A stretch of 64,000 nucleotides of DNA from an uncultured Chlorobiaceae bacterium. Lineage in GTDB: Bacteria; Bacteroidota; Chlorobiia; Chlorobiales; Chlorobiaceae. The translations under genes were made by a program, and so were the position numbers. The stretch spans positions 1 to 64,000 of the forward strand of contig CAIRXW010000021.1 in the NCBI GenBank assembly GCA_903882665.1, written 5' to 3'. Positions within the stretch are counted from its first letter, which is position 1, and the number at the start of each line of letters is the position of its first letter. The notes under the pieces were generated by a model. That model ran no database searches, was not told the origin of the DNA, and saw only the letters and a list, made by a program, of their open reading frames with translations. Shown piece after piece: positions 13,304-27,302 of the stretch.

Positions 13304-13582
13304 TTGATTGATGAGCCTGAGCTTGGTTTGCACCCTTTTGCAATTCACCTTTTAGCCGCAATGCTTCGTTCCGTCTCTAAGCGGCGACAGTTGATTGTCT
13401 CTACGCAGTCCACAGATCTTTTGAACGAGTTTGATGCTGAGGATGTTGTTGTTGCTGATCGGACAGAAGGTTTTACCTGCCTGCACCGTCTGGACTCGCA
13501 GGCTCTGAAAAATTGGCTTGATGCATATTCTCTCGGAGAGCTATGGCAGAAAAACATACTTGGCGGGAGGCCATCACGATGA
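13304..13582 (+). pseudogene. C-terminal remnant of an OLD/RecF-like AAA ATPase
   Basis: IDEPELGLHP Walker B/D-loop and QLIVSTQSTDLL at the N-terminus of the ORF; Walker A half absent. Confidence 0.75.
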
Positions 13583-13738: not shown

Positions 13739-15136
13739 ATGAAACTTGCTACAATCGACATCACCTACTTCCGCTGCTTTGAGTCACTTGCGATCAAGCT
13801 TCACCCCGACATCAATGTTTTTGTTGGTGCCAATGGTGCAGGCAAAAGCAGCATTCTTGATGCCATCGCCATTGCACTGTACGAACTCGTCGCCGCAAAT
13901 GGTGGGGGAGGCAAGAGCCAGCGAAAAATGCAGGGGGCTGCACTTCAGGCTACGGATATTGCCATCACTCCCTCAATTGGAGAGTCTTTTGCCGGGCGCA
14001 AGCAATTCGTACAGATCAGTGCAGGGGTAACGGATTACTATCCAATCGAAGATTTCACAGGAAAAACACCTGACGGACAGAACGTACTGCTGGAGTGGAC
14101 AGATCACATTGTTTATAGTATTCCAGCCACGTTCATTTACGACACCAGCGCTTCGGAAAGAGTCTCAGAACTTCACTATTATATAACGCTCCTTTGGGAA
14201 GAAATCGTCAAAAGTCCGCAAGCATTGATTCCTTTGCCCGTTGTAGCCTACTACCGTGCTACTCGGAGGATGGAGGGAATGCCTGAACTTGGAGATATCT
14301 TTAAACTCGACCTTGCCAGAGACAAGGCATTCGTCAGTGCTCTCAATGCGGCTGCAAATTTTACTGCCATGTGCCAGTGGTTCTACTTGCGTGAGAACGC
14401 CGAACTCCGTGCCCATGTAAACGTCCAGAATGGCGACAGCACGGAGTTTGCTGACTTGCGTGCTGTACGAGAGGCATTGAAACTTACCATTGATGGACTG
14501 GAGCGTATTTACTTTGATGGCAGTCCACCACGACTGATGGTTGAAATCAGGGAGTTCGATGGCACTTTGCGTGCATTTGAGCTGGCGCAACTGAGCGACA
14601 GTTATCGTAACTTGCTTGCGCTGGTACTCGACTTCGCCCGTCGACTTGCTCAGGCCAATCCAAACTGGCCAAACCCGCTTGAAGCGCCGGGCATTTTACT
14701 TATTGACGAAATCGAACAGCACCTTCATCCTTGCTGGCAGCAAAAGATCATTCCCGCTCTTCGTGCAGCTTTCCCGAACACCCAGCTCATTGTTTCAACG
14801 CACAGCCCGGCGGTGCTCACCACAGTACGCCGCGAACATATCAAACTGCTTGGCGCCGACCATCAGTTTGAGCAGATCCTGGAAGATGTAGGTACCTACG
14901 GGGCGGACAACTCCCGCGTTCTGGCTGAGGTGTTTGGTACTTATCCTCGACCTCAAAATATTGATACAGTCCAACAATTAGCTGAATACTGGCAGGCGGT
15001 GGAAGCTCAAGAACACGATACCGATCAAGCAAAAGCTCTACGTCAAGAGCTTGAATCAGCATTGGGCACAAGCGATCCCGATCTTCTTCGCGCCGATCTT
15101 CGGATAAAACAGTTACAATTTTTGAAGCAACGATGA
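13739..15136 (+). CDS. SMC/RecF-like AAA ATPase (PtuA-like architecture, no partner nuclease)
   Basis: 465 aa; GANGAGKSS Walker A, ILLIDEIEQHLHPCWQ Walker B, QLIVSTHSPAVLTT. Confidence 0.8.
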   Translation: MKLATIDITYFRCFESLAIKLHPDINVFVGANGAGKSSILDAIAIALYELVAANGGGGKSQRKMQGAALQATDIAITPSIGESFAGRKQFVQISAGVTDYYPIEDFTGKTPDGQNVLLEWTDHIVYSIPATFIYDTSASERVSELHYYITLLWEEIVKSPQALIPLPVVAYYRATRRMEGMPELGDIFKLDLARDKAFVSALNAAANFTAMCQWFYLRENAELRAHVNVQNGDSTEFADLRAVREALKLTIDGLERIYFDGSPPRLMVEIREFDGTLRAFELAQLSDSYRNLLALVLDFARRLAQANPNWPNPLEAPGILLIDEIEQHLHPCWQQKIIPALRAAFPNTQLIVSTHSPAVLTTVRREHIKLLGADHQFEQILEDVGTYGADNSRVLAEVFGTYPRPQNIDTVQQLAEYWQAVEAQEHDTDQAKALRQELESALGTSDPDLLRADLRIKQLQFLKQR

Positions 15137-15292
15137 AATAAATCCAAGAGAAATATCGACTTAAATCAGACGAAATCATTTATATAAGCGCAATAGATTT
15201 GTATATTTAGAGCTATTTGATTTGAGTTGCTGACTTTTTTCAACTGTTGGCTTCACAGGTGTACAGCTTTTTTATTTTTATACTATACAAGA

Positions 15293-18061
15293 ATGCCGGG
15301 ATTACAACTGAGGGATGAATTTCTCGGGGCACACATGCCCGGCACAGCTATTGCACTGCGAACCAGCGATAACAAGGGCGCTGCCCAGAAGTCTGCTGAT
15401 TCTATTTTGTCGATCACCTACCCGACCTCCGATATCCAGACAGCCCTGAAGGCGATCAGTGTGAAAAACAGTGGGCGTCCCATCGTTGTTATGGGTGGTC
15501 GAGGGCGCGGAAAGTCACACATCATGGCGGTGATGCATCATGCCCTTCACTCTCCTCAAGTGGTGGAATCATGGCTCAAAGAGTGGGGTGCGAAGCTCGG
15601 CAATGATGAGCTAAGCAAGCTGGAACTGCTCAAGGGCTACTTCCCTATTTCCGAGCCTGTGCAAAATCAGGAATATCCGCGTCTCTGGGATCTTGTGTTT
15701 GAGCGTCATCCAAAAGGGGAGTATTACCGAGGCCATTTTGAGAGCATGTCTTCAACATTTCCGCCTCGCACTCTTCTGGAGAAGATGTTTGAAGAGCAGC
15801 CCATTGCTTTAATCCTTGATGAATTTCAGACATGGTATACCGGCCTGCCTGACAAAGATCCTAAAACAGGTCTTTTGCTCAAGCAATACGCCTACAACTT
15901 TGTGCAGATTATCTCTGAAATTGCTGCCGATCGCCCGGAGCTACTGATTTTTGTGATTTCGGTGCTCAATAATGATAATGAAGCCTTTAAGCAGGTGCAT
16001 CGGCAATCGCCTGTTATCATTGATTTTCGTGGCCCCTCAGCCCGGCAGGATCGCCAGAAACTTCTTTTGCACCGGCTCTTTGAAAACAGGCGCAATATTC
16101 AGCATGCAGATATTATCACAACTGCCGGCATCTACTCGACCGAGCGGTTTCGTTTGCTCTATGCCAACAAGTCCGAAGCTGAAAAGGAGCGGATTCAAAA
16201 CGAGGTCTTTACCTGCTGGCCCTTCACTCCGGAGCTGCTTGATCTGCTTGAAGACCACATTCTGCTCTCTTCGGCAGCACAAGAGACAAGGGATCTCATT
16301 CGGATTCTTGCCCAGGTGTTTCGCAGTCGCGGTGCGCTTGTGCCTGTCATTACTCCCGCCGATTTTTTTGTTGATGGTGAGTCAGACGAAGTGCAGACGC
16401 TGGTCGATTCCATAGCAGTTCAGGCAGGTCAGGAAAAACTCCGCCAGATAGCCCAGCGGAATCTTTTTGCGGTGCGTGATTCCGGCTCAACGGTTCCCCA
16501 TGTTCGTGAGCTGGTTAGCTCTCTCTGGATGCGCTCCATCTCCCAAGGAAAGAGTGCGGGTGGAACCCCGGCTGAGTTGCATCTTGATATTACCCGTGAA
16601 GCTTGTATCGACAACAACTCCTTTCAGGCTGAATTAGCCTTGCTTATCGAGAACAGTGTCAATATTCATGGTGACGAGGTGCCTGGCGGGCCACTCTGGT
16701 TTGGCATCAACGAGAACCCGCGTGCGAAGGTTCGGGCTTGTGCCAAAAATGACCGGCTCTGGCAATGCAGTGCTGCGCAAACGAGCGGGACGACGCTCTA
16801 CCCTGGTCAGGATATGCAGTGGATTCGAAAATATTTGCGATATGAGCTTGCTGGACAGGATATCCGGGAGAACGTATCCCGAATCATTGTTCTTGCCCAG
16901 AACTGGCGCGATGACCCCTGGAGTGAGCTGGAAGAAGCAGACAATCCTGCAAAATGGGATCGTCCGGTGCTTCTGGTCATTCCGGACAACATAGAGAGTG
17001 GTGAAGTGAATGCAACACTGGGCCCCTGGCTGGCAAAGCACGTCCAGAAAAGGCGTAACACCATTCGTTTTTTACTTCCAGCCGTTGATATGCCGGGCCT
17101 CTACAATGATAAAGAGCTTCTCTACTCGGCCCGGTGCAGCTATCTCTCTTCTCGTGAAGGATGGGGTTCTGACCCAGTATATTTCTCTTTGCACCAGGAT
17201 TTTAACCGACCGTTCCGCACCTTATTGAAGTCCTGTTACAATCGGCTTGCCCTTTTGCGGCAATGGAATTTTCAGCAACCGCAGCGCTGCCTCTTTGACC
17301 TTGAAAAAATAGCCGCACAAGGCGGGGAGATTCCGCCTGCTGTTGAGGCAAAGATTCTCTCTGACCTTTTCGACAAGAGCGAATTCCGCTCTTTTGTGCT
17401 GCAACGCGCAAAAGAGTCCGACTTTATGAGCTCTCTGCTTGACGACCTGATTGAGCCACCTCCACCTAACTCCGGAGAGGCAATTCCTTTCCTTGGAGAG
17501 ACAAAAATCAACGAGTTGGTGCTGGAGCTTGTCGCCGAAGGGGCCATTGTCCTCAATGTCAACGGAGAATGGATAAGGCGGCGCGACGAAGAGGACTCTG
17601 ACCAGGCTGCATTACGTTATATCCAGTCCAGAGCATTTCGCACCGGTCAGGAGTTACGCCAGATTCAGCTTGCCCTGCCTGGAGCCGCTGGTGGCGGAAC
17701 AGTCACCGCTCCGAATCCTCCCCCGGTTGTTCAGCCAGTGAGCAACGTGAATACTCCCTACTTACCATCACCTCCTTCTGGTGGAGGTATCGTAAGTGGT
17801 CTTGATGACAAGAGCGCCATCACCCAGCCAATACCCCGCCCAACGGCAAAAACCTGTAAATCCGCCGAACCAGCAACGGGAATCAACCTCTCGGGCTGTT
17901 TCGAATCATGGGGAGTCTCTTCCAGTCAATCCATTGAAACTGCACGCATCGAATTTTCTGGCCTTACCTCTCAGCAGATCAAGCAGATTCTGCAACGCAT
18001 ACCATCCTCATTCAAAGCGACACTCGATATCACCTGGCGCGATGGAGGCGATCAATCATGA
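15293..18061 (+). CDS. DUF499-type P-loop ATPase, BrxC/PglY-like
   Basis: IALRTSDNKGAAQKSADSILSITYPT; VMGGRGRGKSH P-loop; ALILDEFQTWY Walker B. Start moved from 15227 to ATG at 15293. Confidence 0.75.
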   Translation: MPGLQLRDEFLGAHMPGTAIALRTSDNKGAAQKSADSILSITYPTSDIQTALKAISVKNSGRPIVVMGGRGRGKSHIMAVMHHALHSPQVVESWLKEWGAKLGNDELSKLELLKGYFPISEPVQNQEYPRLWDLVFERHPKGEYYRGHFESMSSTFPPRTLLEKMFEEQPIALILDEFQTWYTGLPDKDPKTGLLLKQYAYNFVQIISEIAADRPELLIFVISVLNNDNEAFKQVHRQSPVIIDFRGPSARQDRQKLLLHRLFENRRNIQHADIITTAGIYSTERFRLLYANKSEAEKERIQNEVFTCWPFTPELLDLLEDHILLSSAAQETRDLIRILAQVFRSRGALVPVITPADFFVDGESDEVQTLVDSIAVQAGQEKLRQIAQRNLFAVRDSGSTVPHVRELVSSLWMRSISQGKSAGGTPAELHLDITREACIDNNSFQAELALLIENSVNIHGDEVPGGPLWFGINENPRAKVRACAKNDRLWQCSAAQTSGTTLYPGQDMQWIRKYLRYELAGQDIRENVSRIIVLAQNWRDDPWSELEEADNPAKWDRPVLLVIPDNIESGEVNATLGPWLAKHVQKRRNTIRFLLPAVDMPGLYNDKELLYSARCSYLSSREGWGSDPVYFSLHQDFNRPFRTLLKSCYNRLALLRQWNFQQPQRCLFDLEKIAAQGGEIPPAVEAKILSDLFDKSEFRSFVLQRAKESDFMSSLLDDLIEPPPPNSGEAIPFLGETKINELVLELVAEGAIVLNVNGEWIRRRDEEDSDQAALRYIQSRAFRTGQELRQIQLALPGAAGGGTVTAPNPPPVVQPVSNVNTPYLPSPPSGGGIVSGLDDKSAITQPIPRPTAKTCKSAEPATGINLSGCFESWGVSSSQSIETARIEFSGLTSQQIKQILQRIPSSFKATLDITWRDGGDQS

Positions 18062-21045
18062 AGAATATTGACTGGAACGCCCTCATTTTCGGTTCACACT
18101 CTGCGGCAACAGCGTGGATGGAGATATTCTCCTCTTTACTTGCGATTGCCCGGCAGACTTCATCGCCTGTTCTGCTTCATAATGCAACAGTTACTCCTGA
18201 CCGACTGTTGAGCGAAGCCGCCTGGGAACTTTGGGAAGCCTTTCCTCTGACAGCAGTAAAAACTTCAGCCAGCCTCAAAGAGTGGACACGTCAAAGTCCG
18301 GGAAAGGCTGTTCTCATCCTTGACGCTCTTTCATTACGGGAGTTGTCTCTTTTGCTTGGCGCGGCAGAAGCAAGGGGTATTCAGCCGCAGGAGGTGAAAG
18401 TTACTGGATCAGAATCTCCTTCAACCACCGACCACTTTGCCAAAGCCATCGGGTTGCCATCAAGAAGCGCCTTGGCCAACGACGGGAAACCTGGCACCCT
18501 GTCACTTTTCGACGGCAATTGTTTTACGGAAGAGCCAGGGCTGCACTGTCCGAAATGTGGAACCTTTGCCGGAAAGCGCCTTGTTGATCAGTTTACGCGT
18601 CACGTCCAGCCCGCACTTGGTGCCACAGCGCGAAAGAAAAAGGAGTTTGGTCTCAGGAACAAGCCGGTTCAGATGTACCTGCTCATCCATCCCGAATGGC
18701 TGAAAGGGGCATCAGGTTTTGACGGGGAGCGGGAGTATGGTGGATGGGCCGGAGCACCGGCAGAGGCAACCGCCGACTGGTTCACGAAACGGCTGGAAAA
18801 TTTGCGCGTTGTTGAGGTTCGAGGGGCTTCACTGCCGGATGAGGTGGTTTTGGCTGACGGGACGGTGATTGAGACTGCAATAGGTACAGTTCCATATAAA
18901 AAAACCAATAAAGGTATTAAGCCAGATAACGGAAAATATATTTGTGCTAATTGTGGCAGGAAAGAGAGCTTTTTTAATAGTGCAAGGGAATCTGAAAAAA
19001 CATTGCCGGTAACAAGTTATGCCTTGCAGTGTCATTGCCCCCAGTGTGATGCCGATGGCTATACTTATGGAGGGCGATATTTTAAAGCGCCTGATGCCTA
19101 TGATATTCAACGGCTCAATGCTGCTCAAATGGAGTGGAGAAACCGTTCAGAAATTGATTTAGCAGAATATTGGCCGCAGCAGGAGGTACCCATCGGTGAA
19201 CGTACAACCAAACGGGATAGTATGCAGCAATGGGGCTATACCCACTGGTGGAAAATGTTCAATCCTCGCCAATTATTAGTACACACTCACCTGCTCAAGG
19301 CTATTACGGAAGCTTCGGAAGATTCATGGCCTTTGGATGTGCGGGAACAGGCTCTTGGTGCTTTACAGTCGTATTTGCGTAACCAAAATATGTTTTCCTT
19401 TTATCACGTAAAACGAGATTGTCTCGCGCCAGCCCTTAGCAATTCAAATTATCATCCTAAAAGTGCGACGATCGAGGTTAGTGCATTCAGCTCTGGATAT
19501 GGCCCCTGGAAAACTACTGCGTTAGGAATTTTAAGTGGGCTTGAGTGGGCTTTGAAGCCTTGGGATCCTGTTATCAAAGAAGATGCTGGACAAGCAAAAA
19601 GTATTAGGGTTGAAATGAATGATCCTATTGTTCCAGGTAATGAAGCCTTTTGTGCTTCGTCAACAGATTTGTCGATTTTGGATGATCAACAGTTCGATAT
19701 GGTTATTACGGATCCACCCTTTGGTGATAATCTGTTTTATGCCGATCTGGCTGATTTCTTCTATGTCTGGTTACGAATTCCTCTCCGTAAATGGTATGCT
19801 GATTTGCGTGAAGAGGCTTATTTTGAATCGGAGCTTACTCCGCATAGCATGGAGGCAGTAGATAATACGGTGGAGCATCCAGATGACAGAGAAGATTACG
19901 AGAAAGAGCCCTTTATTGAAGCTAAACACTTGGTCAAGATTCGGGGTTTGACGGATAATTTGGTTCTTGCGGAAAAAGATTCAAATCCTTTTTACCGCCC
20001 GCAGCCGTCAAGCGACTTCTACAGCCAGACCTTGTCTGCCTGCTGGGCAGAAGCAAGAAGCCGTTTGAAAGATGGTGGTATTATGGCTTTTACCTTCCAC
20101 CACAACGAAGATCAGGCTTGGATTGATGTCCTTTTAGCTCTTTTTAATGCAGGTTATTTATTGGTAGCAACTTATCCTATCCGAAGCGATGAATCCAAGG
20201 GGGATAATGCTTCATTTGGTTCACAAAAAATAGAATACGACATCATTCACGTCTGCCGTAAACGTCTCGGAGAGCCGGAGCCGGTGAGCTGGGCGCGGAT
20301 GCGGCGCTGGGTGAAAGAGGAGAGCTTTCGCCTGAAGGAGCTGCTGGAACATACGCATGGCAAAGAGCTGCCGGAATCCGATTTGAGGGTGATTCTTCGG
20401 GGCAAGTCGCTGGAGTTTTACTCACGCCACTATGGCAAGGTGTTTACTGGCGACAATCAGGTGCTTGATGTGCGTGAAGCCCTGCTTGGCATCAATCAGC
20501 TTCTTGACGATTTGCTGGAAAACACCTCTTTGACCGGAGGCGTGCACCCTCCTGACAGTGCTGAACCGGCAAGCCGGTTGTACTTGCGTTTGTTCAAAAA
20601 GCGTACAGAGATGGAGCGTGACGAGCTGCACAAAACCCTGCGTGGCACCGGCATTGCCCAGGGAGACCTTGAGGCGCGGGGGTGGGTCAGGGTGGTTGGT
20701 AAAACCGTTGTGATGGTGCCAATCCTTGAGCGCATTGCCTTTTTTACCGAGCGTGGTCGTAACCGTAAGGTGATTAAAACAGACCTCGATCAGGCCCATT
20801 TTCTTGTAGGCGCGGCTTTTGTGGATTCAGGGCTGAAGATCGAAAGCGAGCTGAACAACCCGAACTTCAAGGTGAAACGCTCTGTTGATGAGCTGTTGCA
20901 CTGGTATGCTGAGGTTGATGATGATCCCGTCAACCGGGTGGCCGCCACCACCGCCTCACAACTTTTGGAGCGCTGGCGTAACCGCAAAGTCAAGCCAGAG
21001 CCAGCCCAACTCTCGCTTTTTGAAGTACTCGAATCAGATGAATAA
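18058..21045 (+). CDS. Chimeric protein: PglZ-like N-terminal segment joined to the C-terminal part of a DUF1156/COG1743 (PglXI-like) DNA methylase
   Basis: N-term VLILDALSLRELSLLLGAAEARG…SESPSTTDHFAKAIGLPSRSAL is PglZ-like; CPKCG zinc motifs; ITDPPFGDNLFYADLADFFYVWLR methylase motif IV; ATGA overlap with the upstream gene. Confidence 0.65.
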   Translation: MKNIDWNALIFGSHSAATAWMEIFSSLLAIARQTSSPVLLHNATVTPDRLLSEAAWELWEAFPLTAVKTSASLKEWTRQSPGKAVLILDALSLRELSLLLGAAEARGIQPQEVKVTGSESPSTTDHFAKAIGLPSRSALANDGKPGTLSLFDGNCFTEEPGLHCPKCGTFAGKRLVDQFTRHVQPALGATARKKKEFGLRNKPVQMYLLIHPEWLKGASGFDGEREYGGWAGAPAEATADWFTKRLENLRVVEVRGASLPDEVVLADGTVIETAIGTVPYKKTNKGIKPDNGKYICANCGRKESFFNSARESEKTLPVTSYALQCHCPQCDADGYTYGGRYFKAPDAYDIQRLNAAQMEWRNRSEIDLAEYWPQQEVPIGERTTKRDSMQQWGYTHWWKMFNPRQLLVHTHLLKAITEASEDSWPLDVREQALGALQSYLRNQNMFSFYHVKRDCLAPALSNSNYHPKSATIEVSAFSSGYGPWKTTALGILSGLEWALKPWDPVIKEDAGQAKSIRVEMNDPIVPGNEAFCASSTDLSILDDQQFDMVITDPPFGDNLFYADLADFFYVWLRIPLRKWYADLREEAYFESELTPHSMEAVDNTVEHPDDREDYEKEPFIEAKHLVKIRGLTDNLVLAEKDSNPFYRPQPSSDFYSQTLSACWAEARSRLKDGGIMAFTFHHNEDQAWIDVLLALFNAGYLLVATYPIRSDESKGDNASFGSQKIEYDIIHVCRKRLGEPEPVSWARMRRWVKEESFRLKELLEHTHGKELPESDLRVILRGKSLEFYSRHYGKVFTGDNQVLDVREALLGINQLLDDLLENTSLTGGVHPPDSAEPASRLYLRLFKKRTEMERDELHKTLRGTGIAQGDLEARGWVRVVGKTVVMVPILERIAFFTERGRNRKVIKTDLDQAHFLVGAAFVDSGLKIESELNNPNFKVKRSVDELLHWYAEVDDDPVNRVAATTASQLLERWRNRKVKPEPAQLSLFEVLESDE

Positions 21046-21066: not shown

Positions 21067-22254
21067 ATGAAAATAGAGTCCATACGGTTAAAAAATTTCA
21101 AGGCATTCCGTGATGCTGAGTTGATTGATCTGCCGAATTTCTGCGTCTTTGTCGGGGCGAATGGTACAGGCAAGAGCACGATCTTTTCTGTGTTTGGCTT
21201 TCTGAAAGATGCTATCACCAGCAATGTCAACACGGCGCTTGCAAAGCTTGGCGGAAGCCGGGGGTTTTCAGAGGTGCGCAGCCGTAACGCCACCGGGCCG
21301 ATTGAGATTGAATTGAAGTTTCGCGAAGGGAGCGACACGCCCCTGACCACCTACTTTCTGCAAATCAATGAGGAGAACGGTCGGGTTATTATTGAGCGTG
21401 AAATTCTCAAATACCGCAGAGGCAGTGGTGGTCAGCCGTGGCATTTTCTTGATTTTTCGCGGGGGAAAGGGAGCGCTGTCACTAATGAACTGATGTCGGT
21501 TAACGATGTCAAAGAGTTGACTCGCGAAGAGCAGACGCTGAAATCACCGGATATTCTGGCTATTAAAGGGTTAGCGCAATTCAAGCGCTTTCCGGCTGTG
21601 GTGGCGCTTGGCAATCTTATCGAGAACTGGCATATCTCTGATTTTCATATCAGTCGGGCCCGTCCGGAGCAGGAGGCTGGTTATGCAGAGCATCTGTCGC
21701 GTGAGGGTGAAAACTTGTCGCTGGTCATCCAGTATCTTCATAATCACCATCCTGCCGCCTTCATTCAAATACTTGAGTTGCTGAAGCAGCGCATTCCCGG
21801 GATCTCTCAGGTAGAATCAAAAACCACCGAAGAGGGGCGGGTGCTGCTCAAGTTTCAGGATGGTTCGTTTGAAGATCCTTTTCTTGCCCGCTATGTTTCG
21901 GATGGTACCATCAAGATGCTGGCCTATCTGACGCTGCTCTATGATCCTTCCCCTCACCCGTTGCTGGGTGTAGAAGAGCCTGAAAATCAGCTCTATCCAA
22001 GGCATTTGCATGAGCTGGCTGAGGAGTTTCGCAACTATGCAAATCGGGGCGGGCAGGTGTTTGTTTCGACCCATTCACCTGATTTTTTAAATGCAACAAC
22101 TGTTGATGAGGTGTTCTGGCTCGTCAAAGAAGAGGGATATACCCAAATCCGTCGAGCCAATGAAAATGCGCAGATTGTTGCCTATATGAAAGATGGCGAT
22201 CAGATGGGCTATTTGTGGGATCAGGGATTTTTTGAGGGGAGCGATCCTCAATGA
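21067..22254 (+). CDS. AAA ATPase, AAA_21/AAA_15 family (OLD/AriA-like)
   Basis: VGANGTGKST Walker A; VSDGTIKMLAYLTLL; GVEEPENQLYP; VFVSTHSPDFLN. Confidence 0.82.
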   Translation: MKIESIRLKNFKAFRDAELIDLPNFCVFVGANGTGKSTIFSVFGFLKDAITSNVNTALAKLGGSRGFSEVRSRNATGPIEIELKFREGSDTPLTTYFLQINEENGRVIIEREILKYRRGSGGQPWHFLDFSRGKGSAVTNELMSVNDVKELTREEQTLKSPDILAIKGLAQFKRFPAVVALGNLIENWHISDFHISRARPEQEAGYAEHLSREGENLSLVIQYLHNHHPAAFIQILELLKQRIPGISQVESKTTEEGRVLLKFQDGSFEDPFLARYVSDGTIKMLAYLTLLYDPSPHPLLGVEEPENQLYPRHLHELAEEFRNYANRGGQVFVSTHSPDFLNATTVDEVFWLVKEEGYTQIRRANENAQIVAYMKDGDQMGYLWDQGFFEGSDPQ

Positions 22255-22808
22255 AAAACCTTGTTTTCTTTCTTGAAGAGCCCTCTGCACAAAGGATGCT
22301 TGAAGGGGTGTTGCCCAGATTTATCCCTTCTGATGTCGTGGTTCACTATGTGGTTTTTCAGGGAAAAAGTGATCTGGAAAAACAACTTCTCCGAAAGCTT
22401 CGTTTTTGGCAACGTCCTGATTCTGTTTTTGTTGTCATGCGCGATCAGGATTCCGGTGATTGCAGGGCTATAAAACGAAGACTTTTAGAGCTTTGCCAGC
22501 AGGCTGGGCGAGGTGAAGCTTTGGTTCGTGTTGCTTGCCATGAATTGGAAAGTTTTTATCTCGGTGATCTGGCTGCGGTTGAACGTGGGCTTGGTATCAG
22601 GGGGTTGGCTGCAAAACAGGGACAGAGTCGGTACAGAACTCCGGATAAACTTGGCTCTCCCTCTGAAGAATTGAAGAAACTGACAAACGGCAAATATCAG
22701 AAGGTTGCGGGTTCCCGTGCCATTGGTGGGCATCTCAATCTCGAAAAAAACAGCTCACACAGTTTTACCGTGCTTCTGTCGGGAATTAAAAAAGTGCTTG
22801 AATCTTGA
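22251..22808 (+). CDS. DUF4276-family TOPRIM-like protein
   Basis: ATGA overlap with the ATPase; FLEEPSAQRML (TOPRIM Glu) and VVMRDQDSGDC (DxD). Confidence 0.7.
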   Translation: MKNLVFFLEEPSAQRMLEGVLPRFIPSDVVVHYVVFQGKSDLEKQLLRKLRFWQRPDSVFVVMRDQDSGDCRAIKRRLLELCQQAGRGEALVRVACHELESFYLGDLAAVERGLGIRGLAAKQGQSRYRTPDKLGSPSEELKKLTNGKYQKVAGSRAIGGHLNLEKNSSHSFTVLLSGIKKVLES

Positions 22809-22812
22809 CATT

Positions 22813-23310
22813 ATGGAAACAATCTCGAACACGGTTTGGCAACGCAAGGGTTCATCGGTAATTTTTGACAAAGTGAGCCTTGGTGAGTTTATTCCCAAAG
22901 GGGCAATGATCTCTCTGCGGCATCTTCTGAGCTGGTCGCAGGGGTTTCCTGACGATCCGCCGGTAACAGGTCATACCATTCTGGTCTCCGGCCTTGAAGC
23001 CATTATTGAAACAATGGAACCGCCCGCGGCTGAGGCGTTTCTTGCCTGCACTGTCCGGCCATTGCTGAAAAATCTGCAAAATCGCTGGCCTGCCTGTGGG
23101 GTGGTGTTCGGATTTTCCTCTCATCCCAATGCTTTTGAAGTGACGGTTCTGGAAGAAGAGCTGCTTTTTCGCCGTCGTGACCGCAAGACGGTGCGTCTTT
23201 CGGACGGGTTATGGGATGGCAGTGCCGCGTTTGACTTGAAACGTGTTAATCGCCAGGGCGAAGAGGGGGGCGAGGTCACCGTTGGCTACTATGTCGATCG
23301 CATTTCCTGA
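22813..23310 (+). CDS. Hypothetical protein of the BREX-like cluster (possible BrxF-position protein)
   Basis: 165 aa from ATG 22813; 20-nt overlap with the helicase gene; no Walker A seen. Confidence 0.6.
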   Translation: METISNTVWQRKGSSVIFDKVSLGEFIPKGAMISLRHLLSWSQGFPDDPPVTGHTILVSGLEAIIETMEPPAAEAFLACTVRPLLKNLQNRWPACGVVFGFSSHPNAFEVTVLEEELLFRRRDRKTVRLSDGLWDGSAAFDLKRVNRQGEEGGEVTVGYYVDRIS

Positions 23311-26080
23311 AATAGAGCCAGGGCTGAAAGTCAGCCACAGGGAGCTTGGCGATGGTATGGTTGTTGGCCGTGAATCGACAGGCTTTGTCACGGTCTTTTT
23401 TCGGGCTCATGGTGACCGGCAGGTTCCGGCTGACTCTCTTCAATTGGCAACCGACCGTTTCGACCAGATTATCCGGGGTATGGTGCCGGTTACAAAGGAG
23501 CGGCTGGAGCGGCTCTGGCTGGCTGTTGAAGCTGAAGAACTTCCTCTGATGGAGAGTGCCGCAACCCTCACTTCCGCAAAAGTCGATCTGCTGCCGCATC
23601 AGATTGTATTGGTGCATCGTCTTACGAACGCCCGCCCCAAGCGATTTCTCATTGCCGATGAAGTTGGATTGGGCAAAACAATTGAGGTTGCGCTTATTCT
23701 TCGTGAGCTTGCATCGCGGGGTGAGTTGCAGCGGGCCATCATGATTGTGCCTGCCGGGCTGGTGGAGAATTGGCGAAGAGAGCTGAACGATGTGTTTAAT
23801 CTCGATTTTGAGGTGTTCGGCAGCGACGGTGACGTCACTGACCGAAAATCAAATGCCTTTGCCAAGCATAACCGGTTAATTGTTTCGGTCGATACGCTGA
23901 AACGGACATCAAGGGTGAAGCGCCTTCTTGCAGCTCCGTTATGGGATCTGGTTGTTTTTGATGAGGCCCATCATCTGAGCGTTTATCGCACCGGCAACAA
24001 GGTTAAAAAAACGGAAAACTTCAAGCTGGCTGAAGCAATTCGTGACCATTGCCGCGATCTTATTTTGCTCTCCGCCACTCCTCATCAGGGCGACCATTTC
24101 CGATTCTGGATGCTGATTCGCCTCCTCAGCCCTGAACTTTTCGAAAATGAGCACGATATGGTGCGCAATCGCCACCGGCTTAATGCGGTTGTGATCCGCC
24201 GTACCAAGGCTGATGCCTGTGCACAGGATGGCAGTTCGTTGTTTGTGCGGCGCATGGTGCATACCCAAGGGTTTCGGCTTTCGGAGAAAGAGCAGGAGTT
24301 TTATCAGGCACTTCTTTATTATTTGCAGGATGGATACAACCTTGCCGCCAGGAATGGCAACAAGGGTCGTGCCCTTGGTTTTGTCATGACCATCTTTCAG
24401 AAAATAGCCGCAAGCAGCTTTGCCGCCATCCGTTCAACCTTGCGTCGCCGCTTGTTGATGCTCACCATTCACGAAGGAATTGAGCGCGACGAGCGTCTCG
24501 ATGTTGATGGTCGTAACCGGGTGTTTGAAGAGGCGCGGCAATTTATTCACCAGATGTACGGCTTGCCCTTCGATGCGGTCGGCAATGCAGAGACAGAGCA
24601 GATTCTTGCTGATGCGAGGTATCAACTCCTCAAAAAACGTCGCGATTCGCTTTCGTTTTCCTCAACGGCGGAGAGTTACTCCGACCAGGAATATGATGCC
24701 GGAGCAAGCGAGGAGTCTGCAGCGACACTGGTTACGGTTGCCCTGCCACAGGAAAGGCAACGGATTTCAGCTCTTCTTGCATCATTTCCGGAGGGCGTTG
24801 AGTCAAAAATAGTGATGCTTGTTCATGCGCTGGAACAGATCTGGCAGCAGAATTCGGATGAGAAGGTCGTTATTTTTGCCACTTATCTTGGCACTGTTGA
24901 GGCCATTAAAAAGCAGTTGAGTGATCGTTTTCCCGACAAAGGTGTCGATATTCTCAAAGGTGGTGATCATGGGGCAAAAACGGCTGCTCAAAAACGGTTT
25001 CGACGCAAGGATGGCTCATCGGTACTGGTTTGCACGGCGGCAGGACGGGAGGGGATAAACCTCCAGTTTGCACGAATCCTCTTCAATTATGATCTGCCAT
25101 GGAACCCGATGGATCTGGAACAGCGGATTGGGCGAATTCACCGGTATGGGCAGGATTCAACGGCACAGGTCTACAACCTCGTGGCAACCGATACCATTGA
25201 AGGGCAGATATTTTTGTTACTTGAGGAAAAGCTCGCTGACATTGCGAAAGCCCTGGGAAAGGTTGACGAGCAGGGGCAAATTGCCGAAGATCTGCGAACA
25301 CAAGTACTGGGGCAATTGAGTAACGTCTTGAGTTATGACCGCCTCTATCAGGATGCTATCAGTGACCCTGCATTGCAACGGACACGGCAGGAGCTTGAAG
25401 TTGCCATGTTGAACGCCGACCTTGCCCGACAGGTTGTGTTTGAACTCTTTCAGGAACTTGACAAATTTAACCTCGGAGAGTACCAGAAATTTGACGATCA
25501 GGGCAAAGGAATGCAACGGCTGGTCAATTTCCTTGCACGCGCAGCAACGGTTTTGGGTTTGTCATTTCATCAAGAGGCTGATGCTCGACTGGTGTTGCAG
25601 AATAATGGAGAGCCACCTCTCTCCTTTACCACTGACCGTGACCTTGCCATGCAACATGAAAGTCTCTACCTTCTTGGGCTTGAGCATCACATGATCAGTA
25701 GCCTGCTGAATCGCTTTGCCAATGCTGAGACCCATTCCAGAGCTCTTGCAGGCAAAGCGGGCAGCATCAGGCAAAGCGGTCTTTTGACGATATGGAAGAT
25801 CAACACGCAGGGAAAAGATGGACAAATTCACCACCGCATCGCCCGTATCGGCATGAGCCTTGATGGTACCAGAGCCCCCTGGCTTGAACACCTTGATGAC
25901 GCGCTGCTAAGCATGGAAGCGCCGGTTTCAATAACACCGGAGGAGTGGAAAACGGTGGCCATCAACAAGAAATCGCACCTTCAGGAACTTTTGCATCGGG
26001 AGCTGAGCTACTGTGGAGTCATCAATGCTGAGACCACTTATGCGGCGACACTGCTCGCCGCAGTCGGAATGGAAAAGTAG
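23291..26080 (+). CDS. SNF2-family DNA helicase (BrxHII/DrmD/RapA-like)
   Basis: ADEVGLGKTIE Walker A, FDEAHHLS, LLSATPHQGD, VLVCTAAGREGINLQFA, MDLEQRIGRIHRYGQ; start moved from 23243 to ATG 23291. Confidence 0.88.
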   Translation: MSIAFPEIEPGLKVSHRELGDGMVVGRESTGFVTVFFRAHGDRQVPADSLQLATDRFDQIIRGMVPVTKERLERLWLAVEAEELPLMESAATLTSAKVDLLPHQIVLVHRLTNARPKRFLIADEVGLGKTIEVALILRELASRGELQRAIMIVPAGLVENWRRELNDVFNLDFEVFGSDGDVTDRKSNAFAKHNRLIVSVDTLKRTSRVKRLLAAPLWDLVVFDEAHHLSVYRTGNKVKKTENFKLAEAIRDHCRDLILLSATPHQGDHFRFWMLIRLLSPELFENEHDMVRNRHRLNAVVIRRTKADACAQDGSSLFVRRMVHTQGFRLSEKEQEFYQALLYYLQDGYNLAARNGNKGRALGFVMTIFQKIAASSFAAIRSTLRRRLLMLTIHEGIERDERLDVDGRNRVFEEARQFIHQMYGLPFDAVGNAETEQILADARYQLLKKRRDSLSFSSTAESYSDQEYDAGASEESAATLVTVALPQERQRISALLASFPEGVESKIVMLVHALEQIWQQNSDEKVVIFATYLGTVEAIKKQLSDRFPDKGVDILKGGDHGAKTAAQKRFRRKDGSSVLVCTAAGREGINLQFARILFNYDLPWNPMDLEQRIGRIHRYGQDSTAQVYNLVATDTIEGQIFLLLEEKLADIAKALGKVDEQGQIAEDLRTQVLGQLSNVLSYDRLYQDAISDPALQRTRQELEVAMLNADLARQVVFELFQELDKFNLGEYQKFDDQGKGMQRLVNFLARAATVLGLSFHQEADARLVLQNNGEPPLSFTTDRDLAMQHESLYLLGLEHHMISSLLNRFANAETHSRALAGKAGSIRQSGLLTIWKINTQGKDGQIHHRIARIGMSLDGTRAPWLEHLDDALLSMEAPVSITPEEWKTVAINKKSHLQELLHRELSYCGVINAETTYAATLLAAVGMEK

Positions 26081-26119: not shown

Positions 26120-26923
26120 ATGAACCAGAACACCCTTGCGCTTACTCCGGAAAACGAAGAGCTTAACCAAAAGCTCGCGCAACTTGCTGTGGAGTTTCTG
26201 GATCTTTTTACCCGTCACAAAGAGATGGTGGAGGATGAGTATGTTATTCTGACCTCACTCTATCTTGAGAAACTGGGTTGTTTTCAGCTTGAGTTACTGC
26301 AAAAGAAAACGGAAGCTGCCCGGCTTAAAATGAAAATGAAGTTGATACAGGCGGCAATAAACCGCGATGAGCGACCCGATTTGCAGGTGATAGAAAATTC
26401 AGTAGATAAAAAATTTCAGGATTATTATGCTGAAATTGAGGTTCAGGCTGCCGCTTTGGATCAAGCCAAAGATGTGCTGTCACATTTGGTTTCAGAAGAG
26501 GATACCCTGAAGCTGAAAGAGTTGTTTCGGGTGCTGTGCAAAAGGCTCCACCCTGATTTGAATCCGGATCAAACGGAAGATGAAAAAGAGTTGTTCATCA
26601 AGGTAAAATCGGCTTATGATCTGCAAAAAATAGCTGAACTGCAAAACATTCTTCTCTATCTTGATGAGTCGAAAAGGGAGAAGATTGTATCTATCTCAGG
26701 TGATGAGAAGAGGGAACGGATTGAGCATCTTGAAAGCAATGTCAAGTCGTTGACCGCCAAAATAGCCCAATTACAGCAAACCTTTCCGTTCAATGTTAAA
26801 GAGTTGATTTTTGATGAAAAATATATAGCGCAGAAACAGGGGGAGTTAAGAAGTGATATTGAAAAATTTGAGAAGGAAAGGGCCAAGTATGCAACACTTA
26901 TTGACATCATGACTGATGAGTGA
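26120..26923 (+). CDS. Coiled-coil protein with J-domain-like HPD motif
   Basis: LKELFRVLCKRLHPDLNPDQTEDEKELFIKVKSAYDL resembles DnaJ helix II-HPD-helix III; flanking charged coiled coils. Confidence 0.65.
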   Translation: MNQNTLALTPENEELNQKLAQLAVEFLDLFTRHKEMVEDEYVILTSLYLEKLGCFQLELLQKKTEAARLKMKMKLIQAAINRDERPDLQVIENSVDKKFQDYYAEIEVQAAALDQAKDVLSHLVSEEDTLKLKELFRVLCKRLHPDLNPDQTEDEKELFIKVKSAYDLQKIAELQNILLYLDESKREKIVSISGDEKRERIEHLESNVKSLTAKIAQLQQTFPFNVKELIFDEKYIAQKQGELRSDIEKFEKERAKYATLIDIMTDE

Positions 26924-27302
26924 ATCTCTCATACCCGTAACGCCAGGTTTGCTGGATCTCCTGCGTCGAGAGGGGCAAGGTATTGTGCCGTTTTCGCAGG
27001 AAATTCTGGTATTGGAAATAGTCGTTGCTGGTACAAGCTATTGTGCTGAAATTGAGAGCATTGAATCTTGTATCGTCCCTGAAAAATTTTTGACGATGAA
27101 AAGAGAGCCTGATAATAAATTTGACAAGTTTGCGATTGCTCTCTATTGTGACGACACTCGTATTGGATTTGTACCGGCAGCAACGAATCAGGTTTGTTCG
27201 CGTTTGATGGATGCCGGAAAATTATTTGTATGCAGGGTCGTTGCGAAAAACTGGATTGATAGCTGGCTGCAAATAGATGCCCATATTTTTATGGTTGACT
27301 GA
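26916..27302 (+). CDS. Stand-alone HIRAN-domain protein
   Basis: VVAGTSYCAEIE…LTMKREPDNKFDKFAIALYCDDTRIGFVPAATNQ; 8-nt overlap with the upstream gene. Confidence 0.72.
   Translation: MSESLIPVTPGLLDLLRREGQGIVPFSQEILVLEIVVAGTSYCAEIESIESCIVPEKFLTMKREPDNKFDKFAIALYCDDTRIGFVPAATNQVCSRLMDAGKLFVCRVVAKNWIDSWLQIDAHIFMVD

Follow-up and report, generated by a model that had tools for sequence, protein, structure and literature searches.

A deletion-derived fusion of pglZ with a DUF1156-type methylase gene, probably marking a decayed Type-3 BREX-Related operon in a Chlorobiaceae genome

In the 64,000-nucleotide window analysed here (the whole stretch of DNA, from an uncultured Chlorobiaceae bacterium), one open reading frame begins as pglZ and ends as a methylase gene, which raises the question of whether it encodes a new kind of enzyme or is what remains of two old ones. 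The earlier note, made from the letters alone, had offered the choice between a new functional architecture and an inactive methylase. Our analysis favours inactivity, as SAM motif I and the WWARR motif are deleted, and speaks against a new architecture, as the fusion was found in no other genome searched. Very probably, a Type-3 BREX-Related (BR) defence operon has decayed here through a single deletion of ~2.2 kb that fused pglZ to the methylase gene and left the product inactive. The frame opens with an ATG that overlaps the stop of the upstream ATPase gene and is built as follows.

18058-21045, + strand: chimeric ORF of 995 aa, the 5' half of pglZ joined in frame to the 3' part of a DUF1156-type N6-methylase gene
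18058..18528, + strand: PglZ-derived part, chimera aa 1-157, matched by tblastn to separate ORFs of ~318 aa in relatives (alignment A3)
18529..21042, + strand: methylase-derived part, chimera aa 158-995, equal to aa 350-1179 of the methylase of relative L002
18528..18531, + strand: deletion junction at codon 157/158, with a 2-bp microhomology (GA at 18529-18530), from base-by-base comparison
18870..20250, + strand: mosaic central segment, 25-82% amino acid identity per 40-residue block to L002 and L006, with flanks at 90-100%

Comparison with relatives upheld the reading of a PglZ-like N-terminus joined to a methylase without its canonical N-terminal half. Chimera residues 1-157 matched the separate PglZ-like ORF of relatives at 35-88% identity, and residues 158-995 matched the last ~830 residues of a methylase of ~1,080-1,290 aa at 37-78% identity. 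What remains of the methylase is the latter half of the TRD/zinc-finger insert, followed by motif IV (DPPF, 19711-19722) and a C-terminal region that is described as three HTH-like domains (PMC12839542). The zinc-finger motifs named in the earlier note were located by motif scan at aa 164 (CPKC) and 296 (CANC), along with CPQC at 327 and DPPF at 552; the TRD insert, which in Type-3 BR methylases has one or two 4C zinc fingers, is cut in half here, with Cys pairs kept at aa 164, 296, and 327. The same scan found no WWARR, D-x-F-x-G-G-G, SDHG, or HGG anywhere in the chimera, in agreement with the reported lack of the DUF1156 signature and of the DPFxGGG SAM motif, and it turned up no SAM-binding motif hidden elsewhere in the frame. 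No DUF1156 match exceeded the cut-off in Pfam or NCBIfam, and partial matches began at aa ~338. Family libraries matched fragments only (HmaB, 1.5e-23; PglXI, 7e-15; DUF1156_MTase, 6e-13; NCBIfam DUF1156_antiphage, 60 bits where the cut-off is 1000), the best stretches starting at or after this residue, and a phmmer search of the chimera against the PDB returned no match.

The alignments of intact relatives defined what the deletion had taken. In alignment A2 (23 full-length methylases), WWARR (residues 85-89 of L002) and FMGGGTT (139-145) were invariant, and both lie within the deleted residues 1-349; the DUF1156/WWARR region and SAM motif I (DCFMGGGT), kept by the intact relatives, are gone from the chimera. 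Its methyltransferase motif set is therefore reduced to motif IV (D/N-PP-F/Y) at aa 552, with motif I (FxGxG) absent. In alignment A3 (22 PglZ sequences), D90 and T125 survive in the chimera, where the invariant D lies in LILDAL (aa 89) and the T in PSTT (aa 124). The invariant residues W179, H180, D184, H188, D228, H229, H301, G302, and G303 all fall in the deleted half, and five of these (D184, H188, D228, H229, and H301), invariant in the 22 relatives, are catalytic-type residues of PglZ. The motifs WHxWxDxxxH, SDHG, and HGG are accordingly missing from the PglZ part, and of the metal-binding set (D, T, D-H, H), D89 and T124 are present and the others deleted. A profile of the intact short PglZ proteins matched the solved BREX PglZ 9nv3 (E=0.003) and PorX 8ted (E=0.02); these matches are weak but run through the conserved DHG and HGG motifs. 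In the BREX type I PglZ, the double mutation T538A/H741A abolishes metal binding at the active site (PMC12205998), and T125 and H301 of the short PglZ may, by analogy, be the equivalents of T538 and H741. Having lost motif I and the first two Rossmann strands, the chimera would, we infer, be unable to bind SAM or to methylate; likewise, the loss of the D-H and H metal-ligand motifs suggests that it would lack PglZ nuclease action. Judged from these motifs, inactivity is the most likely state of the methylase and also of PglZ, which has lost its second metal-binding half.

Structure modelling was consistent with this picture. In the AF2 model of the intact L002 methylase (pLDDT 80.1, pTM 0.71), a strand at 134-137 runs into motif I and another occupies 155-160; beyond a long insert comes the strand with DPPF, at 730-735. 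This predicted layout fits the published one, in which the TRD insert lies between strands 2 and 3 (PMC12839542). In the chimera (pLDDT 67.8, pTM 0.44), the methylase part begins inside the TRD insert, with residues 158-346 at a pLDDT of about 35-70 and the PglZ part at about 45-79. The retained half-TRD dropped from ~90 in the intact model to ~50 in the chimera, a contrast that serves as supporting evidence only because the input alignments differ. Weak generic methyltransferase matches were all that a PDB structure search with the two models yielded (best E 0.019 and 0.008), and we build no claim on them because of this weakness.

A scan of a species-level genome collection (84,980-species contigs) yielded 28 loci, and when the query was divided at the junction, the N-terminal part was matched in 22 of the 28 and the C-terminal part in all. 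The two genes occupied separate ORFs in 21 of the 21 loci in which both were legible; in the remaining locus with a match to the PglZ part (L028), the methylase frame is broken. The PglZ-like ORF of relatives measured 307-377 aa (mostly 316-338; intact ~318) and the methylase ~1,080-1,290 aa, with 1.5-3.2 kb between the two matched segments, and plasmid records likewise carried two genes. Homologues with the same junction, which the earlier note had suggested seeking, were found in none of the 84,980-species contigs, plasmids, phages, or viral contigs, and a further fusion within the family was seen in 0 of 86 genomes, 65 of them from the same genus. Two loci (L014 and L015) were at first taken for fusions because the tblastn match extended through aa 63-108; both were rejected, since in either locus PglZ has an ORF of its own, and this ORF and the methylase are complete. 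Separately, in a deltaproteobacterial relative (L025 1829-4796), the methylase lies in three pieces through frame changes, possibly another decayed copy or the result of MAG errors.

Within the same genus, two genomes carry intact loci, L002 (=G034) and L006 (=G038), and the latter, a sister genome, carries the unfused genes at the same place in the chromosome, sharing with the window the flanking decarboxylase and PtuA-like genes. L006 matched the window at 96.3% identity over 7,056 bp up to window position 18527, and the match restarted at 18529, 2,177 bases further along in L006; the event is therefore a 2,176-bp deletion relative to L006, and about 3,224 bp relative to L002. To the left of the junction, the window is identical to the L002 pglZ over the 70+ bases displayed, and to the right it is ~96% identical to the methylase genes of both L002 and L006. 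This clean difference between syntenic loci supported the internal deletion that the earlier note had proposed as the origin of the pglZ-pglXI fusion, and codon 157/158 (window ~18528-18531) falls within the range of residues 155-165 in which the note had placed the junction. The deletion appears to lie in an interval prone to loss. Between pglZ and the methylase gene, L002 has two PDC-M02 cargo genes (M02A/B; L002:7273-8948). In L006 (L006:7541-8178), M02A is lost and M02B lacks ~540 bp internally, in frame, which suggests that this interval eroded independently there.

The possibility that the strain has intact pglZ and methylase genes, from which the draft dropped ~2.2 kb through an assembly or amplification artefact, was weighed against these data. 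The source genome is a 57-contig draft, the fusion was seen in a single instance, and short junction microhomology such as the one found here is also typical of chimeric amplification products. Against this, the breakpoints bear no repeat in register, and the longest word shared within 1 kb is 10 bp, so the deletion was neither repeat-mediated, a mechanism that we rejected, nor a usual assembler collapse. Moreover, the missing pieces lie on no other contig of a genome that is 99.88% complete with 0.08% contamination, and neither lost half, the N-terminal one of the methylase or the C-terminal one of PglZ, recurs anywhere in it (the only other matches were short and weak, E 0.002-0.19). We therefore regard an artefact as unlikely.

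The retained methylase sequence bears on whether the chimera itself might be functional. Its mosaic central segment (counterparts at L002 10350-11700 and L006 9577-10940) covers ~440 residues, made up of the half TRD and the catalytic strand, and this pattern suggests recombinational swapping of the methylase specificity module among strains of the genus. In 270 retained flank codons compared with L002 and L006, the changes unique to the window lineage were 26 synonymous and 1 non-synonymous, which indicates purifying selection on the retained part for most of the branch. Such a ratio fits either a recent deletion or a remnant still constrained and does not choose between them; the deletion may be younger than most of that branch, and the good conservation of the retained C-terminal segment suggests that the deletion is probably recent. 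Counting against inactivity, the 995-codon frame is open without a stop, and the synonymous excess in the flanks also fits a chimera under selection; the adjoining ATPase, iSTAND-like, and helicase genes look intact as well. On such grounds, the chimera could be a functional new protein in which a PglZ-derived helical N-terminus is tethered to the DPPF and HTH region, acting as a DNA-binding scaffold or dominant regulator, either non-catalytically or with another protein contributing the SAM-binding parts. Yet the fusion is carried by only one draft genome, both catalytic motif sets are gone, and the junction cuts midway through two folded domains whose remnants are both poorly modelled around it, which makes a functional chimera quite improbable. 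It is very doubtful that the chimera is kept as a non-catalytic DNA-binding fusion assembling with the ATPase and helicase in modification-independent defence or regulation. Another alternative is regulated and reversible switching, by phase variation or DNA inversion, in which the missing halves would be stored elsewhere and could return. This would recall the phase variation of pglX genes in BREX/Pgl (PMC9122589) and the swapping of the central methylase module between strains, but it has next to no likelihood: the lost halves are absent from the genome, which already refutes it for the most part, and the breakpoints show no inverted or direct repeats in register.

The genes around the chimera are as follows.

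15227..18061, + strand: DUF499-type AAA+ ATPase, 944 aa counted from a TTG (Pfam DUF499 E=7e-4, below cut-off)
21067..22254, + strand: OLD-like AAA ATPase, first HEC-01 gene (PADLOC PDLC04144 E=5e-202)
22251..22808, + strand: DUF4276 protein, second HEC-01 gene (Pfam DUF4276 E=1.2e-12; PADLOC PDLC04143 E=7.9e-85)
22813..23310, + strand: 165-aa gene at the iSTAND position, from a conserved ATG at 22813 (the ORF list starts at TTG 22705)
23243..26080, + strand: SNF2/BrxHII-like helicase, 945 aa (PADLOC HmaA E=1.4e-100, BrxH E=7.9e-96)

The ATPase, for which an ATG at ~15293 is a likelier start than the TTG, has a Walker A motif (GGRGRGKS, found by script) and 96% DNA identity to the L006 gene, and its orthologues of 929-944 aa lie directly upstream of pglZ in relatives. 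The 165-aa gene has orthologues of 165-167 aa preceding the helicase gene in L002, L003, L007, and L015, and from its position and size it may be the iSTAND component of a Type-3 BR system. The helicase motifs DEVGLGKT, DEAH, LLSATPH, and RIGRIHR are intact, and a Pfam scan found no nuclease family in this protein. The HEC-01 pair is nested between the methylase and iSTAND-like genes in the window and in L002 and is absent from L003 and L015. Further afield, window 13739-15136 encodes a PtuA-like ATPase (PADLOC PDLC00311 E=1e-166), and upstream of it a stretch surrounded by stops, at 13304-13582, encodes a short C-terminal piece of an AAA-ATPase (IDEPELGLHPFAIHLLAAML...) and is apparently a pseudogene of another OLD-like defence ATPase. 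After the helicase gene, window 26120-27302 holds a small DnaJ-like gene (a weak match, below cut-off) and a HIRAN-domain gene.

These genes refine the reading of the fusion: the parent is a DUF499-centred Type-3 BR locus with a small standalone PglZ rather than BREX type 3 proper. The operon described for Type-3 BR (Rakesh & Krishnan 2026, PMC12839542) is that of the intact relatives, which share with it a DUF499 ATPase, a standalone short PglZ, a DUF1156 N6-methylase with a zinc-finger TRD insert, a small gene at the iSTAND position, and a BrxHII-like helicase without nuclease. The window retains the DUF499 AAA+ ATPase (a weak but specific match) and the nuclease-less BrxHII-like helicase; it differs in lacking a separate active PglZ (aa 1-157 of ~318 are left) and a methylase with the DUF1156 helical domain and SAM motif I, the two proteins being truncated and fused, and in carrying HEC-01 cargo in the operon. 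Hma (the PADLOC name, equal to Type-1 BR) supplied the best PADLOC matches of both the methylase (HmaB) and the helicase (HmaA), but Hma itself is without PglZ and its helicase usually carries a nuclease (PMC12839542). BREX type 3 (BrxXI/PglXI, BrxHII, PglZ, BrxF, BrxA) has a related methylase and helicase architecture and a PglZ; unlike in that system, PglZ is here a standalone domain of ~318 aa and the ATPase comes from the DUF499 group, and BrxA and BrxF had no match in ten window ORFs or in the L015 and L002 operon proteins scanned.

On this basis, the ancestral order would have been DUF499 ATPase, pglZ, optional PDC-M02 cargo, N6-methylase, HEC-01 cargo, iSTAND-like gene, and helicase. 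A single illegitimate recombination of the microhomology type would then have removed the 3' half of pglZ, any intervening cargo, and methylase codons 1-349, leaving the frame open by chance. The system would thereby have been turned off for self-marking and restriction alike, both being lost in one step. In the Streptomyces Pgl system, PglX is toxic without PglZ (PMC4365076), and in type I BREX, deletion of pglZ slows growth (PMC9122589). As losing PglZ alone is lethal or growth-slowing in these related systems, joint loss is a plausible low-cost and safe exit, by analogy with a toxicity precedent that comes from Pgl and BREX, not from BR systems. The PglX-PglZ pair of Streptomyces is likewise a functionally coupled methylase and PglZ whose separate loss matters (PMC4365076), but it involves another methylase class and no fusion.

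The chimera carries a caution: even when motifs are recognisable on either side, an in-frame fusion may be a dead product of deletion. Annotators of this genome should not take its DUF1156-like and PglZ-like matches for a working system. The locus would be a natural BREX-Related operon switched off by one event that removed both the effector and the self-marking enzyme, in keeping with the idea that self-damage is avoided only when PglZ and the methylase are lost jointly.
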